The position numbers were made by a program, and so were the translations under genes. From Nitrosomonas sp. Nm166 (GTDB taxonomy: Bacteria > Pseudomonadota > Gammaproteobacteria > Burkholderiales > Nitrosomonadaceae), in contig NZ_FONE01000012.1 of assembly GCF_900112825.1 (NCBI RefSeq), forward strand, positions 1 through 64,000: DNA of 64,000 nt, given 5' to 3'. The notes below the pieces were generated by a model. That model ran no database searches. It was not told where the DNA came from and saw only the letters and a list, made by a program, of their open reading frames with translations. Positions 38,966 through 45,494 of the stretch are shown piece by piece; within the stretch, counting starts at the first letter, position 1, and every line of letters begins with the position of its first letter.

Positions 38966-39293
38966 GTATGATTTTTATATTTCGTCTTGGAGAAATGCGC
39001 AATGGCAAGCGTAAGGGATTTAATTTGAGAGTAGTTCCGCTCAAGTTCTAGGAATGCATATAACGCGTTTCTAATTCAACACTTTCATTGTTGGTAAATG
39101 TGAGTTAGAATTTGTAAAATGATCTGAATCATATTGGATTGTTACGAAATAAAAGTAATATATTCAAATCCTTGAATGGTTGGTCAATAAAAAGTTACAC
39201 GATCACAAAACTTTGTGCTCGTGAAAGTAGGGGGGTCGATGTTATCGGCTTTAGTTAAGTAAGTGGTAATCTATTTAAATAAGGAGATTAGTT
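38966..39293. other. Long leader/intergenic region with one hairpin
   Basis: These 328 bp follow the lipocalin operon and lead into a 38-codon gene. The clear structure is the hairpin at 39198-39223. A tiny 18-codon frame at 38995 has a GGAG-like ribosome site but no other support. No RNA family was recognised. Confidence 0.4.
39198..39223. promoter_or_regulatory. Hairpin in the leader of the 38-residue peptide gene
   Basis: CACGATCACAAA and TTTGTGCTCGTG form a 12-bp stem with one mismatched pair and a two-base loop. It ends 70 bases before the ATG at 39294. It could be a protein-binding dyad or an RNA structure; no T-run follows, so it is not a typical terminator for the operon upstream. 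Confidence 0.4.
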
Positions 39294-39410
39294 ATGACTG
39301 AAATTAATAGAAGAGAAACAGATGCACAAGTTCTGAGATTGTTCTTCATTTCAACAGCAGTTTTTATTGTAATTGGAGCGATTGTTTACGGCATTTACGG
39401 CGGTTTCTAA
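39294..39410 (+). CDS. 38-residue single-pass membrane peptide
   Basis: The gene runs ATG 39294 to TAA 39410 and gives 38 residues. The first 14 are charged (MTEINRRETDAQVL). The rest is one membrane helix, FFISTAVFIVIGAIVYGIYG, ending GGF. An AAGGAGATTAGTT ribosome site in good position supports translation. Its size and shape recall accessory subunits of respiratory enzymes such as NapE/TorE or CydX, but it matches none of them well. It is flanked by hairpins and lies on the opposite strand from the protoglobin gene, pointing toward it. Confidence 0.65.
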   Translation: MTEINRRETDAQVLRLFFISTAVFIVIGAIVYGIYGGF

Positions 39411-39747
39411 ACTGATCGGTTTTTATGAATGCCCGTATGCGTAGTTTAAGATTTGCTAGTTATTGATGATTATCCAGTTTTATCAAAACTTATTCTATCG
39501 CTATGAATGATTTGTAAAACGTATCAGTTAAACACATTTTACAAGTAAAAATATAAATGCCCATTTATCGGAAAATTATCTGATAAATGGGCATTTATCA
39601 TGCATTAGCGCACAAAAGATTATTACTCTTAGTAAGTAAAAAACAGTTGCAATAACAATTGGGCTCAATGAGCATTCATTTTTATTTTGGTTACTTCATC
39701 CAGTTTGAACAGAAAGTGGCAAGTAACAAATGTTACTTCCAGAACTT
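39411..39747. other. Convergent intergenic region with large palindrome
   Basis: These 337 AT-rich bases lie between the peptide gene and the convergent protoglobin gene. The only structured element is the 17-bp-arm palindrome at 39553-39598. I find no gene. Confidence 0.5.
39553..39598. terminator. Large palindrome, likely bidirectional terminator
   Basis: The arms 39553-39569 (ATAAATGCCCATTTATC) and 39582-39598 are perfect complements, with a 12-base loop. The flanks are A/T-rich on both sides. It lies between two convergent genes, which suits a two-way terminator, though it is 143 bases from one stop and 150 from the other and has no long T-run. It could equally be a repeated extragenic element. 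Confidence 0.5.
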
Positions 39748-40341
39748 TCAGAACTCCCCTTCTTTAATATAAGGTTGTGACCACAGAATGACTTGCATCA
39801 GGACAGATTTGCGCCAGGCGTCTTGCATGCGATCAACATCATCACGTGAGTGACCCCCTTTCTCCAGAAATGGGCGAAGTGTGGTCGTGATTGGAATGAG
39901 TAATGCAAAAATGTAGTGTATGTGAATAATCGGGACAGATTTTACGTTGTCTGTACTATTTTTTTTAGAGCTGTGATGACGCAACCCGATCTCATACTGA
40001 TAGTTGAGCCAGTTCTGATCATATTCGGCATTTGCGGTATCAACAATCCATTGACCAAAGCGTTTACGCACTGCTCCCAGGTAATTCGTATCCGGCTGAC
40101 CATCTGCTGGATTGGTGAAATAGTGCAGCAGAAACGGTGTCGAGCCTACAAAGCCATACCATACATCCAGGATTTGTTCTGTCTGGTCTTTCAGTATGTC
40201 GTGCGACATTTTCAAGTAACGCACATCATCATCACTAAATAAGCTGGCTTGTTTCAGTTTGTCGAAATCTTCCATGGTGAATGGAGATTTCTTAAGCTCA
40301 GCACTGCCATAGGTATATCCGGGTATATTTGTAGCTGCCAT
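39748..40341 (-). CDS. Protoglobin (heme-binding globin-fold protein)
   Basis: This 197-residue protein is a stand-alone protoglobin, the heme domain related to globin-coupled sensors. It opens with MAATNIPGYTYGSAEL and contains FTMEDFDKLKQASLFSDDDVRYLKMSHDIL, YLGAVRKRFGQWIVDTANAEYDQNWLNYQYEIGLRHHSSKKN and a C-terminal helical part. The proximal histidine is expected in the GLRHHSSKKN segment. Protoglobins bind O2, CO and NO; in a nitrifier a role with NO is plausible but inferred. The ATG at 40341 fits the AAGGA ribosome site better than the one at 40347. Confidence 0.85.
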   Translation of the reverse strand: MAATNIPGYTYGSAELKKSPFTMEDFDKLKQASLFSDDDVRYLKMSHDILKDQTEQILDVWYGFVGSTPFLLHYFTNPADGQPDTNYLGAVRKRFGQWIVDTANAEYDQNWLNYQYEIGLRHHSSKKNSTDNVKSVPIIHIHYIFALLIPITTTLRPFLEKGGHSRDDVDRMQDAWRKSVLMQVILWSQPYIKEGEF

Positions 40342-40558
40342 AAACATTCCTTTTTATTTTTGAGTTAGTCATCATAGGTAACAAAGTAATAGTTACACTA
40401 TGTATTTATATCATGCGGTTACGCAATGAATTCTGGTCAAATTATATAAAAAAAGAGTCAATCCAATATTGGATTAAAATTTAAATCGCGGATTTTACAG
40501 GATTGATAATGAGTGCGGGGGTACTTTTTTATAGGAGCAGCAGGTAAAAAGTGGTTGT

Positions 40559-41959
40559 CTAATTTCTGTGTATTTTCAACAAAGTATCCAGCCAATTCTT
40601 CCAGGATTGATATTTCTCTGATAATGCATGGTTCTCATATTGAATGGTGATTTTTTTAGTCTGGTGGTTAGATTTCGATTGAAGCCTACCAGCAAGGAGC
40701 GCTGCACCTTGCAGACTTGCTTCCTTTTGCTGCAAGTGAGAAACCGGCAATGTCACACATTGAGCGATACCTTGTTGCAGACAGGGCAATTCAGATAAGC
40801 CGCCTGACAGGTAAACTTGAGTTAGCGGTACGTGGTAGTGAAAATCTTCCAGGATGCGTGCAACGCGGAAAATAATAGCCTCGAGCATGAGGAGAGCGAT
40901 TTGCTGTGTGGTCAAATCTGTAACAGATCTGGAAAAATAAATACCCCAGTCGTTGCGAAAATAGGGCGCGCCTAAGCCACTTGGCTCTGCCAGGCAAAAA
41001 ATGTCACTGTTTGCCAAATCTTCAACACAGCAATTTGCAACCGGGTAAGGCGCCAGTGCAGCAGCAATGGAATTGAGCGTGCCTTCAATGGCAAATTGAG
41101 CTTGATGGTTGTCATTCTGATAAACCAGTGTTTGTAGATAGCCCCCAAATGCCGGTTCACCTTTGGCAAGAGAGCGGATCACAAAGCCGCCGGTGCCCAG
41201 ATTAACCAGCGCTTCGGTTTGATTATCTGTCAGGCTGGCAATCAGAGCGGCTGATTGGTCACCTATACTGGCTTGTAAGGTCAAACCGACATCCAGTGGC
41301 AGGTTCAAACCAGTTGAAGGTTTGATTTGGGGCAGAATCGATCGAGGAATATCAAAAAGTCTGCATAAAGAGTCTGACCATCGCTGCTGATGGATGTCCA
41401 TGAGCAAAGTGCGCGCAGCCATCGAGGCATCGGTAAGAAAATACTGACCGCCCGTCCAGCGCCAGATCAGAAAAGTGTCCAGTGTGCCTGCCAGCCATTC
41501 ATTCTTAACAAGTTTCTCACGCCACGTCGGATTCTCCTGCAACAGCACACTGAGTTTGGGGGCAAAGTAATAAGCAGTCAAACGTAAACCGGTCCGTTTT
41601 TGAATAGTATCTACCGATGTCTGCAGATGATCACAACAGCTTGCTCCCCGGGTATCCTGCCACGAAATTAAGGGTGTTATGGGCTCACCGCTGGCTTTAT
41701 CCCAGATCAGGAAGGACGAGCGCTGACTGCATAGCCCTAAAGGAGGATGATCGTTGGCTTGTTCATTGGCTTGTGCAATGCATTGTTTTAACACTCGTTC
41801 GGTAATCCGGGCATAATCTTGTGCATTGCTTTCATAGCGTCCATTGCGAACATTAATAGGCGATGCAGGCTCCGCGACGATGTGATGGAGATTTCCTTGC
41901 CGATCCATTAAAGCCGCTTTGATGGAGGTTGTGCCCAGGTCGAGGGCGATCGCGGACAT
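40559..41959 (-). CDS. FGGY-family carbohydrate kinase, glycerol kinase-like context
   Basis: This 466-residue kinase has the ASKHA-type nucleotide fold of FGGY kinases: SAIALDLGTTSIKAALMDRQGN at the N-terminus, SFLIWDKASGEPITPLISWQDTRG near 90-112, ASIGDQSAALIASL near 232 and VYLSGGLSELPCLQQGIAQC near 400. It is shorter than typical GlpK. Its position directly after glpD (TAATG, one-base overlap) suggests it phosphorylates glycerol, but another polyol or sugar is possible. The ATG at 41974 would overlap glpD by 16 bases and is less likely. Confidence 0.8.
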   Translation of the reverse strand: MSAIALDLGTTSIKAALMDRQGNLHHIVAEPASPINVRNGRYESNAQDYARITERVLKQCIAQANEQANDHPPLGLCSQRSSFLIWDKASGEPITPLISWQDTRGASCCDHLQTSVDTIQKRTGLRLTAYYFAPKLSVLLQENPTWREKLVKNEWLAGTLDTFLIWRWTGGQYFLTDASMAARTLLMDIHQQRWSDSLCRLFDIPRSILPQIKPSTGLNLPLDVGLTLQASIGDQSAALIASLTDNQTEALVNLGTGGFVIRSLAKGEPAFGGYLQTLVYQNDNHQAQFAIEGTLNSIAAALAPYPVANCCVEDLANSDIFCLAEPSGLGAPYFRNDWGIYFSRSVTDLTTQQIALLMLEAIIFRVARILEDFHYHVPLTQVYLSGGLSELPCLQQGIAQCVTLPVSHLQQKEASLQGAALLAGRLQSKSNHQTKKITIQYENHALSEKYQSWKNWLDTLLKIHRN

Positions 41960-43548
41960 TAATGCATGATCCATTGCCGGCAGCAGTGCTCAACTTCCTG
42001 CTGTAACTGTGTCTTATCCCAATTCATAACACTGGCTACGCGCAGCGCGATCTGCCGGATTTGGTTTTCTGTCAGCCTGGCCAGAATGAGTAAAGGCAGG
42101 CGGCGGCGTAGCAGATCATCCAGATGTACGACCATTTCAGAAATGGCGCAGTACATCAGATCAGCTTCAATTAACGGCAGGGATGGGATGATTCGCTGTG
42201 CAAGTCCGGCTTGTGTTTCAATACCGCGGAAAATCTCTGTGGTTTGTGTGCCATGCCGACGCAGTAGCCATTTTGTGCTTTCTGCATCAATACCCAGTTG
42301 CATTGCCCGGCTTTGCATGTGGGCAAACCATGCTGAAAAATCTTCTCGTGGTGTCCAGGGAAATAGTTTGCCCTCAGTTGCACACGGCTGGGAAACACCG
42401 AGTTGCGAGCACACTGTATCAACGATTTGAGCGGCATCTTGACGCGATGAGGTTATTTTCCCACCGATGGCGTAGTGCACGCCATTCGAGGTGGATTTTA
42501 ATTCCCAATCACGGCTCATTGCCGAAGGTGAGTCGGAGGAAGGAAGATGCATGTTGAGTTTGAAAACCCGAATCCCGGCAAAATAACCAATAATGTCAGA
42601 CTTTGTCCAGGGTGTTTTCAGATAATCGTTGGCGGCAGCGAGCAGATAGTCAATATCACTATCATCCACAGAAATTTGCTCGGTATTGCCTTTGAAGTCG
42701 GTATCGGTTGTGCATAACAGCGTCAGACCATACCAGGGAATCAGAAAAAACACCCGACCATCTGATCGAGCTGTGAGTAATAACGCTTCATCCTTCAACA
42801 CGGCTGGCATAACCAGATGAACCCCTTTGGAAAGACGGCACCACTCGCTGCTCGGTGTCTCATTGGCTAACCACTGACCGGTAGTAATAACAATCTGTTT
42901 GGCGTTAATTTTCTGCTGGGTTTGGGTAAGTTGATCGCGGATTATCGCACCATCTGCCTTGCCATTGGTTTCCAGCAGTTGGATCAATTTGCAATAGTTG
43001 ATGCAATTGGCGCCCGCATTCAGCGCTCCTGCGATGAGCTCCCATACCAACCTGGCATCATCGGTTTGTGCATCGGCGTAGGTAAAACCGCCTTTCAATG
43101 CGTTTTCATTAAGCAACGGAAAGTGGGCGGTGAATTGCTGCCGATTGAGATAGTGGTGGCGCATGTGCGGATCGGTATCACCGGCCAGGAAATCATACAG
43201 TGTGAGCCCTAGCTTCAGTTGCAGCCGGTTCATGCGCTGATGCGCGTAAACAGGAACACCAAAACGCAATGGCCATACCCGGTGAGGCGCTGCATGTAGC
43301 AACATTTTGCGTTCTTTGAGCGACTTGCTGACCAGCTTGAAATCATAAGTCTCCAGGTAGCGCAAACCGCCATGAATTAACTTACTGGAGGCAGATGAAG
43401 TGGCGTGAGCCCAATCATTCTGCTCAACGATGGCTACTTTCAGTCCGCGTAACGCAGCATCATACGCAGTCCAAGCACCATATATGCCGCCGCCGCAAAC
43501 CAGCAGATCGAAATGCTGGTTTTGCAGCGCTGCAAAATCCCTTTTCAT
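41959..43548 (-). CDS. glpD: Glycerol-3-phosphate dehydrogenase, FAD-dependent
   Basis: GlpD oxidises glycerol-3-phosphate to dihydroxyacetone phosphate and passes electrons to quinone at the inner membrane. The 529-residue protein has the FAD-binding FDLLVCGGGIYGAWTAYDAALRG motif near 12-34, SSASSKLIHGGLRYLETYDFKLV near 52-74, the LIPWYGLTLLCTTDTDF segment and the C-terminal DAO domain. The start overlaps the phosphodiesterase gene by four bases and the stop overlaps the kinase gene, so the three genes form one transcription unit. No glpF or glpT transporter is present. Confidence 0.93.
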   Translation of the reverse strand: MKRDFAALQNQHFDLLVCGGGIYGAWTAYDAALRGLKVAIVEQNDWAHATSSASSKLIHGGLRYLETYDFKLVSKSLKERKMLLHAAPHRVWPLRFGVPVYAHQRMNRLQLKLGLTLYDFLAGDTDPHMRHHYLNRQQFTAHFPLLNENALKGGFTYADAQTDDARLVWELIAGALNAGANCINYCKLIQLLETNGKADGAIIRDQLTQTQQKINAKQIVITTGQWLANETPSSEWCRLSKGVHLVMPAVLKDEALLLTARSDGRVFFLIPWYGLTLLCTTDTDFKGNTEQISVDDSDIDYLLAAANDYLKTPWTKSDIIGYFAGIRVFKLNMHLPSSDSPSAMSRDWELKSTSNGVHYAIGGKITSSRQDAAQIVDTVCSQLGVSQPCATEGKLFPWTPREDFSAWFAHMQSRAMQLGIDAESTKWLLRRHGTQTTEIFRGIETQAGLAQRIIPSLPLIEADLMYCAISEMVVHLDDLLRRRLPLLILARLTENQIRQIALRVASVMNWDKTQLQQEVEHCCRQWIMH

Positions 43549-44297
43549 CGACCGCGCCTCGTCAACGCTTTATGGGGTAAATCGCTGATGAGAATGTCAA
43601 CGCCCAATTGCAGGGCTTTACTGATTTCTGTATCACTATTACAGGTGTAGACAGCGATATATTTATCATGAGTACGCAGCAGGTCGACAATGGCTTGATT
43701 CACATTCTCAATAGGCAGGCAGAGACCGTATAGAAAAGAATGTGTGTTTAACAGCTCACGTGCATCTGCAATGGTCTGATGGGTTTCAAAGTTATAAACC
43801 AGCGGAGATTCCGGCTTATATTGATGTGCGTAGTCCAGGCTGGCAAGGTTGAAGGAAGAAACGATGATTCGTTGATCGGAATTTTGACCGATCAGATCGA
43901 GTGCCTGGCGCATTTTTAGTGCGTGACGGGAAACAGACTCCCAGGCACGATTTTTGATTTCGATCAATAAACGGCAGCGCTTCCGATAGGCGGTCAGAAA
44001 ATCCTGCAGGGTCATGATACCCTCATTCTCGGACTCCGGGTTAATCAGTGCCTGGAGTTGATGATAATCAAAGTCGTCAATGTGCTTATTATGAAGTCCG
44101 ATTTTGTCGAGAAAGCGGTCATGCCAAAGCACTGCAATTTCATCCCGACTCAACTGCACATCGGTTTCGATGCCATCAATTGCGTAGCTCAACGCTTTAT
44201 CAAAGGCACTGCGGGTATTCTCCATGACTTCTGAGTGCAGGCCGCGGTGCGCAAATACCAAACAATTTTCAGGAATAAGATGGGTTTGTTCGGACAT
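43545..44297 (-). CDS. ugpQ: Cytoplasmic glycerophosphodiester phosphodiesterase
   Basis: This 250-residue enzyme cleaves glycerophosphodiesters to glycerol-3-phosphate and an alcohol. It has the GDPD signature FAHRGLHSEVMENTRSAF near 15-32, then GIETDVQLSRDEIAVLWHD (metal-binding E, D and H) near 38-56, and LLIEIKNRA. No signal peptide is seen, so it is like UgpQ and not the periplasmic GlpQ. It is the first gene of the unit that leads to glpD and the kinase, which makes a phospholipid head-group salvage route. Confidence 0.92.
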   Translation of the reverse strand: MSEQTHLIPENCLVFAHRGLHSEVMENTRSAFDKALSYAIDGIETDVQLSRDEIAVLWHDRFLDKIGLHNKHIDDFDYHQLQALINPESENEGIMTLQDFLTAYRKRCRLLIEIKNRAWESVSRHALKMRQALDLIGQNSDQRIIVSSFNLASLDYAHQYKPESPLVYNFETHQTIADARELLNTHSFLYGLCLPIENVNQAIVDLLRTHDKYIAVYTCNSDTEISKALQLGVDILISDLPHKALTRRGR

Positions 44298-44330
44298 CTG
44301 TTTTATGAATGATATTGCACACTATCATTA

Positions 44331-45494
44331 TTACGCTGCTGTTTGCAGCAATTCAATGATGGCCGGATCTTTGGCCATTTCACGTGCAGTTTTTCCTGTT
44401 TTGCTTTTGATTTTCGTATTTGCGCCTTTTGCCAATAATGCTTTTACGGCATCAATGTGATCATGTAAGGCAGCCCACATCAGCGCAGTGACCCCATCAT
44501 CATTTTGCAGGTCGATTTTGGCGCCATGCGCCAGTAACAACTCTATGATGGGCGTATGTCCGTTCTGTGCCGCCAGAATGAGTGGCGTGAAGCCATTCGC
44601 CGCTTTATGGTCAACTTTGGCGCCACGTTTGAGCAATGCTTCAACGACTTCGGTATTGCCAAACAGAGCGGCAATCGTTAGTGCTGTCGCGTCATTCTTA
44701 TCTTTCAAGTCGATTTTAGCGCCTTTTGCCAGTAACGCATTGACGACATCGATATGTCCATTCTGGGCGGCGATATACAGTGCCGTGGTGTCGTTGGCGG
44801 CCAGTAGATTAATGGGAGCATTTTTTTTCAACAATGTTTCGACGATTGCGGTATGTCCGTTTCTGGCAGCCATATAGAGTGCGGTGGTATTATCTGAAGC
44901 CTGCACATCTATTTGTGCATTCTTCGCCAGCAGTTTGTCGGCAATGCTTGTTCTGCCCTCCAAGGCTGCGATCATTAAAGCAGTTACGTTATCTTTGGTC
45001 TGCAAATTGACATTTGCGCCTTTTGCCAACAGAGCATCCACAATGCTTTCATACCCTTTCTGTGTCGCCGGCATGAGGGCTGTAATTCCATCTGTGGTTT
45101 GCACATCAATCTTGGCACCTTTGGCTAATAATGTGTTGACAACCTCTGCGTGACCATTCTTGGCGGCAATAATCAGTGCGGTTGCACCGCCGGCATTTTG
45201 CAGATCAATATTGGCATTATGCTCCAGTAACAGGTCAACAATATCAGCATGCCCATATTGAGATGCAATGATGAGCGCACTAAATCCCATTTCATTCTGA
45301 TAATTAACGTTGATACCTTTTTCCAATAATTGCTTGATAGTCTCCGATTTTGCAGAAAAAGCAGCTTTAAGAAACTCTGTATGATCATCATCAGCAGCAA
45401 AAGTGCTGGTAAGGGGTCCTAATAATATCGCCGAGGTTACCGTCAAAACTAAGAATGTGCGCGTATAATTAATTAAATCTCTTATATAATTCAT
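44331..45494 (-). CDS. Exported ankyrin-repeat protein
   Basis: This 387-residue protein has a signal peptide (hydrophobic core at about 13-30, likely cleavage after TFA) and then ten nearly perfect ankyrin repeats of exactly 33 residues each plus a C-terminal cap. The repeats follow xTALxxAAxxGHxxVVxxLLxxGAxIDxQ. The folded protein would be an elongated solenoid in the periplasm that binds another protein; the partner is unknown. It stands alone, divergent from pgeF, 33 bp from the phosphodiesterase gene. Confidence 0.88.
   Translation of the reverse strand: MNYIRDLINYTRTFLVLTVTSAILLGPLTSTFAADDDHTEFLKAAFSAKSETIKQLLEKGINVNYQNEMGFSALIIASQYGHADIVDLLLEHNANIDLQNAGGATALIIAAKNGHAEVVNTLLAKGAKIDVQTTDGITALMPATQKGYESIVDALLAKGANVNLQTKDNVTALMIAALEGRTSIADKLLAKNAQIDVQASDNTTALYMAARNGHTAIVETLLKKNAPINLLAANDTTALYIAAQNGHIDVVNALLAKGAKIDLKDKNDATALTIAALFGNTEVVEALLKRGAKVDHKAANGFTPLILAAQNGHTPIIELLLAHGAKIDLQNDDGVTALMWAALHDHIDAVKALLAKGANTKIKSKTGKTAREMAKDPAIIELLQTAA

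Follow-up and report, generated by a model that had tools for sequence, protein, structure and literature searches.

A conserved single-helix peptide gene of Nitrosomonas, very probably for an extra helix of ammonia monooxygenase, and its structured leader RNA

Overview

The window, a stretch of 64,000 nucleotides from Nitrosomonas sp. Nm166, carries a gene for a 38-residue peptide (39294-39410, plus strand, ATG start) which, judging from stepwise homology, very probably represents in Nitrosomonas the small additional helix of ammonia monooxygenase (AMO). Nitrification begins with this enzyme. AMO is difficult to purify, and structures that show the small helix are recent. As a whole, the locus is best explained as the gene of this extra helix, equipped with its own promoter-like box and a cis-acting leader; a probability of about 0.82 is given to this reading. 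The peptide belongs to a known type of protein, and its leader is absent from Rfam 15.

The peptide gene and its distribution

The reading frame is preceded by the ribosome binding site AAGGAGA (39281-39287, plus strand), located 6 nt before the ATG and kept at 90% or more across 31 aligned leaders. The peptide has a single hydrophobic stretch (best 19-residue mean of 2.53, from residue 13) and a charged, conserved N-terminus. In a single-sequence structure prediction it forms one helix, from residue 3 to 36, with a mean pLDDT of 89.8. The one-helix membrane peptide and the very good ribosome site described in the first-pass annotation of this DNA were thus both recovered. AMO helices of the kind considered here cross the membrane once and are about 35-46 residues long; the prediction and the hydropathy place the peptide among them, and its relatives measure 33-46 amino acids.

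The distribution was followed in 101 genomes, i.e. the own genome and 100 relatives, with 61 genomes in the genus and 40 from other genera. A search with the peptide alone gave a match at E ≤ 1 in 54 of the 101: nearer lineages carry copies with 76-91% identity, matches farther out are weaker, and five matches from other genera (E 0.2-0.4) are taken as chance. With the profile A1, 56 of the 61 genus genomes are positive at E ≤ 1e-8, and none of the 40 others falls below 0.01 (the next match overall, from another genus, is at 0.0108). A class sample of 369 genomes was also searched with a broader profile; at a threshold of 0.001, the other 367 gave no match. Named records that bear the peptide include N. 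ureae, N. oligotropha, N. marina, N. aestuarii and N. supralitoralis. The five genus genomes lacking it by the A1 profile are G014, G015, G033, G045 and G049, in which a broader profile and a fragment of 9leg (see below) gave nothing convincing. The first-pass annotation had staked its proposal on conservation of the peptide among close relatives, and such conservation is what was found.

The gene is also under purifying selection, with a pN/pS of 0.21 (mean pS 0.433, mean pN 0.090; 38 sequences, 35 codons, uncorrected). It is present once in the own genome. Genus-wide it is a single-copy gene that has no conserved neighbour. The peptide is a real conserved gene.

Homology to the extra helix of AMO

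The assignment stems from a search of 177,635 PDB sequences, a file from which chains of unknown residues only are absent. The best match of the A1 profile is chain Da of entry 9cl6, annotated as "ammonia monooxygenase supernumerary helix" (3.9e-16), followed by chain E of 9leg, "AmoD" (1.2e-7). They are followed by two designed proteins (0.043 and 0.13), in which no individual stretch passes, and by chains of photosystem I (from 0.72 upward). Since four of the A1 rows are distant, two of them being of the 9cl6 type, the search was repeated with the remaining 17 rows. The same order was obtained: 9cl6_Da at 3.5e-6, 9leg_E at 0.012, in an alignment spanning the membrane half, and the next match at 1.0. 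When the window peptide was used alone, a single match was found up to E 10, again 9cl6_Da (0.013). A relative in G038, which the window peptide finds at E 0.011, is identical to 9cl6_Da over the whole chain (39/39 residues). The link from the peptide to the PDB is thus a stepwise homology that appears good as profiles and weak as a single pair. Because the profiles match AMO chains and a relative is identical to the 9cl6 chain, the peptide is best read as an AMO extra helix, and in its own organism it would likewise be a part of AMO. Against this reading, none of the chains of 9pxf, the AMO entry in the PDB whose AmoA is the closest, matches the helix profile.

Entry 9cl6 is presumably the structure of Tucci and Rosenzweig (PNAS 2025), a paper found in the reference lists of PMC13425015 and PMC12445013. 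Like the window peptide, its chain Da is a short single helix. However, proteins of the 9cl6 type have a start resembling MGYSDAATTQ and a GGKY end, whereas the window peptide has neither, and the leader RNA of their genes differs from that of the window. The 45-residue chain E of the AMO entry 9leg is the weaker, second-best match, and its name, AmoD, clashes with the older amoD. The amoD/amoE (PmoD) genes of AMO and pMMO bacteria, compared by description, share only a name with the peptide; according to the part of PMC10030591 consulted, their products are copper-homeostasis proteins that are not considered structural parts of the enzyme. The same part of that paper lists AmoX, AmoY and AmoZ for the archaeal AMO. 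Also compared by description, these resemble the peptide as extra AMO subunits beyond AmoABC, but they are archaeal. A literature search whose scope left out most subscription journals returned no publication dealing with the helix or with the leader of its gene.

AMO genes in the same genomes

The organism has AMO: amoA was found at G000:C78:244-948 (E 1.2e-118). The gene lies on contig C78 and the peptide gene on contig C55. AmoA (PF02461) was detected in 34 of the 61 genus genomes and in none of the 40 others. Among the 34, the peptide is present in 32 and missing in G014 (83% complete) and G045 (100% complete). It is also present in 24 of the 27 genus genomes without an amoA match, where repeated operons were probably lost from the draft assemblies; co-occurrence within the genus is therefore uninformative. 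Complete relatives carry up to three full-length copies of the AMO genes.

G045 (locus L143), which also counts against the reading, has two amoA matches and no detectable helix gene. In the amoA copy fetched from it, the amo promoter-like stretch is followed by amoA with no amoC reading frame in between, so the missing helix is not the only peculiarity of this genome. The stretch itself, TTGAC...GACTAGCCT, is conserved upstream of the amo genes in 9 of the 11 loci scanned (L126-L132, L143 and L144); the two without it are L133, which is at a contig start, and L145. A leader common to the peptide gene and amoC was rejected, as the amo loci carry this different conserved stretch. Two reading frames after amoB gave no Pfam match at 0.001.

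The promoter-like box and the conserved upstream unit

Upstream of the peptide gene lies a promoter-like box, TTTCAT - 17 nt - TAGAAT (39083-39111, plus strand), which is near-invariant in 20 aligned relatives, even where the upstream gene differs. It is part of a conserved unit of about 220 bp with a sharp 5' edge at about 39074. The same sharp edge is seen in L009, L010, L032 and L034, all of which lack the upstream CrtC gene. Only nearer lineages retain the transporter and CrtC genes upstream, and distant lineages have other neighbours; what travels together is the peptide gene and its ~220 bp. A related box, CTTCC(A or C)TTGT...GGTTAGAAT, precedes the peptide with the same spacing in seven loci of the 9cl6 type, including the gene in L047, whose product is identical to the 9cl6 chain.

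Within its own genome the box is unique, with one match at up to 3 mismatches. A generic sigma-70 scan called 2 other sites (3.9 in shuffles) and did not call the box, which is hence treated here as a putative promoter. A leader or box common to other genes of the own genome was rejected: the only full-length match is the locus itself, a further 16 matches cover short stretches (E between 1.1 and 7.4), and the single one overlapping the box is inside a long coding frame.

The leader RNA

If transcription starts from this box, the leader extends over 39118-39293 (plus strand, about 175 nt). It contains two hairpins before the ribosome binding site. Hairpin C (39198-39223, plus strand; arms 39198-39208 and 39213-39223) had been announced as a 12-bp stem. 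The hairpin is there, but the clean 12-bp stem is not: it has 10 Watson-Crick pairs and one U.C mismatch, and a repeat search delimits it with 15-nt arms that are 87% complementary. Across relatives hairpin C covaries, as double changes occur in 5 of 8 counted pairs and 95.2% of cells are paired; the conservation that the first-pass annotation had proposed to look for is thus seen for this hairpin as well. Hairpin D (39232-39252, plus strand, 9 pairs), which had been overlooked, is kept in distant lineages. Here 94.7% of cells are paired, with a double change in 1 of 9 pairs and one-sided variation in 6. A short upstream reading frame at 39239-39262 was considered and rejected, since L004 has a stop after its ATG.

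The case for the leader is carried by covariation across relatives and not by energy. Against dinucleotide shuffles, the stability of hairpin C alone is moderate (z -2.6, 2/200 as stable), that of C and D together is higher (z -3.4, 0/200), and that of the whole leader is not striking (z -1.8, 11/200). The covariation was assessed in the A3 alignment of 21 distinct leaders, in which three helices were tested against 500 shuffles. Paired cells amount to 94.2% (shuffled mean 91.2; 0/500 as high), pairs with a double change to 9 of 25 (5.2; 4/500), double-change cells to 23 (8.8; 0/500) and further pair types to 32 (28.6; 14/500), while the covariation is 0.326 (0.262; 0/500), in rows that are related, so that the changes are not independent events. 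When the partners were slid by 1-3 columns as a control, pairing fell to 36-47%. In a 31-row alignment that includes distant lineages, double changes were found in 10 of 15 predicted pairs.

Some lineages depart from this arrangement. In the window leader (39105-39293) the first covarying helix has lost its 3' strand, which the other 20 of the 21 A3 rows retain. In the lineage of L027, L029 and L030, hairpin D has been replaced by a different hairpin of the ACGTTTCTAAA...TTTAGAAACG type, and an upstream stem is longer. The genes of the 9cl6 type (L045, L047, L138-L142) have a conserved leader of their own with a different predicted fold, as derived from an alignment of the seven.

The leader is specific to the peptide gene. 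The covariance model R1, built from the last two leader helices, matches in 44 of the 101 genomes, once in each, and by coordinate comparison always directly 5' of the peptide gene. The rows of the model came from at least 27 of the 44 matched genomes; the 17 genomes outside the model rows are mostly near relatives, and G010 is distant. Twelve peptide-bearing genomes gave no R1 match, seven of which have the differently folded 9cl6-type leader, and weak matches may have been lost to the strict filters of the search, with at most 36 candidates scored per genome. At the gathering score Rfam 15 has no match in the window or in the loci of 8 relatives, and a permissive scan yielded only matches far below the cut-off. 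A known riboswitch or RNA family was rejected for the leader on these grounds.

What the leader does can be read in two ways, both of which keep the peptide as the AMO helix. It may be a passive stabilizer of the mRNA with no sensing or regulatory role, for which the chances are about even. The different folded leader of the 9cl6-type genes, the missing strand in the window, the swapped hairpin D and the lack of an Rfam match all fit such a role. However, hairpins C and D persist in deep lineages, where double changes maintain them, and they occur nowhere else above threshold in the 101 genomes, which suggests a gene-specific task. The other, more tentative reading is that of an undescribed cis-acting RNA that matches the synthesis of a helix for AMO assembly or array formation to the enzyme's state, with copper, ammonia or free AMO subunits as examples of the signal. 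A leader that only stabilizes is placed slightly ahead of one that also regulates.

The palindrome and the protoglobin gene

The first-pass annotation saw in the peptide an accessory subunit of a respiratory enzyme that forms a gas-responsive set with the neighboring protoglobin gene. That gene is present (39748-40347, minus strand; Pfam PF11563, 2.5e-26) and is the only protoglobin gene found in the genome. Between it and the convergent peptide gene lies a terminator-like hairpin (39553-39598). The palindrome had been reported with 17-bp arms; it exists with longer arms of 23 nt that are 91% complementary, and it is far more stable than its shuffles (z -8.1, 0/200 as stable). A dispersed repeat was rejected, as besides itself it matches at E 0.22 or worse. 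In nine protoglobin-bearing loci inspected, a hairpin lies between the convergent genes in all nine (seven by pattern, two by eye). Its arms are of the GCCCAT type in eight and CACCCATTCATC in L030, and a T-rich run follows in some. The copy in the window has no U-tract, and no terminator was called in the window. The palindrome may nevertheless serve as a terminator common to both genes.

In a context survey of 40 loci (38 usable; L049 and L060 were dropped as cut off), the protoglobin gene is downstream of the peptide gene in 11 of the 38, i.e. the window and 10 others. This adjacency, the single helix and a Pfam similarity to Coa3_cc that is weak (E 0.09) and misses the curated cut-off are what would recommend assigning the peptide to a terminal oxidase or another respiratory enzyme as an accessory subunit. 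However, the protoglobin gene adjoins in only those 11 loci, on the opposite strand and with the hairpin in between, and no respiratory chain is found among the PDB matches of the peptide, which are AMO helices. The accessory kind of subunit therefore stands while its respiratory partner does not; the gas-responsive set is not supported, and such a role is considered very unlikely. In its size, its single membrane helix and the long, folded leader of its gene, the peptide resembles type I toxins, but a toxin repressed by antisense RNA is still less probable given the single copy in the genome, the genus-wide presence, the purifying selection, the charged conserved N-terminus, the homology to an enzyme-bound helix and the absence of a PADLOC match.

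Beyond the protoglobin gene, four minus-strand genes (40559-45494) follow, the first of which is an FGGY kinase by Pfam; their order is kept in several relatives. Database searches gave a best value of 0.076 in PHROGs and no match in PADLOC or NCBIfam.

Proposed mechanism and significance

In the proposed mechanism, the peptide gene would encode the Nitrosomonas form of the small extra transmembrane helix that accompanies AMO. Transcription would start from the conserved promoter-like box into the ~175-nt leader with its covarying hairpins, and the transcript would end before the strong hairpin. The leader would act in cis on the stability or the translation of the peptide mRNA. In this way, one helix gene could keep pace with AMO genes that are present in up to three full-length copies.

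With the probable helix gene located across Nitrosomonas, away from amoA and under a control region of its own, deletion, tagging and proteome searches become feasible. As the leader is covarying, gene-specific and without a match in Rfam 15, control of AMO assembly at the RNA level becomes directly testable. Should the leader indeed be an undescribed cis-acting RNA, it would mean that a component of AMO is controlled at the level of RNA.
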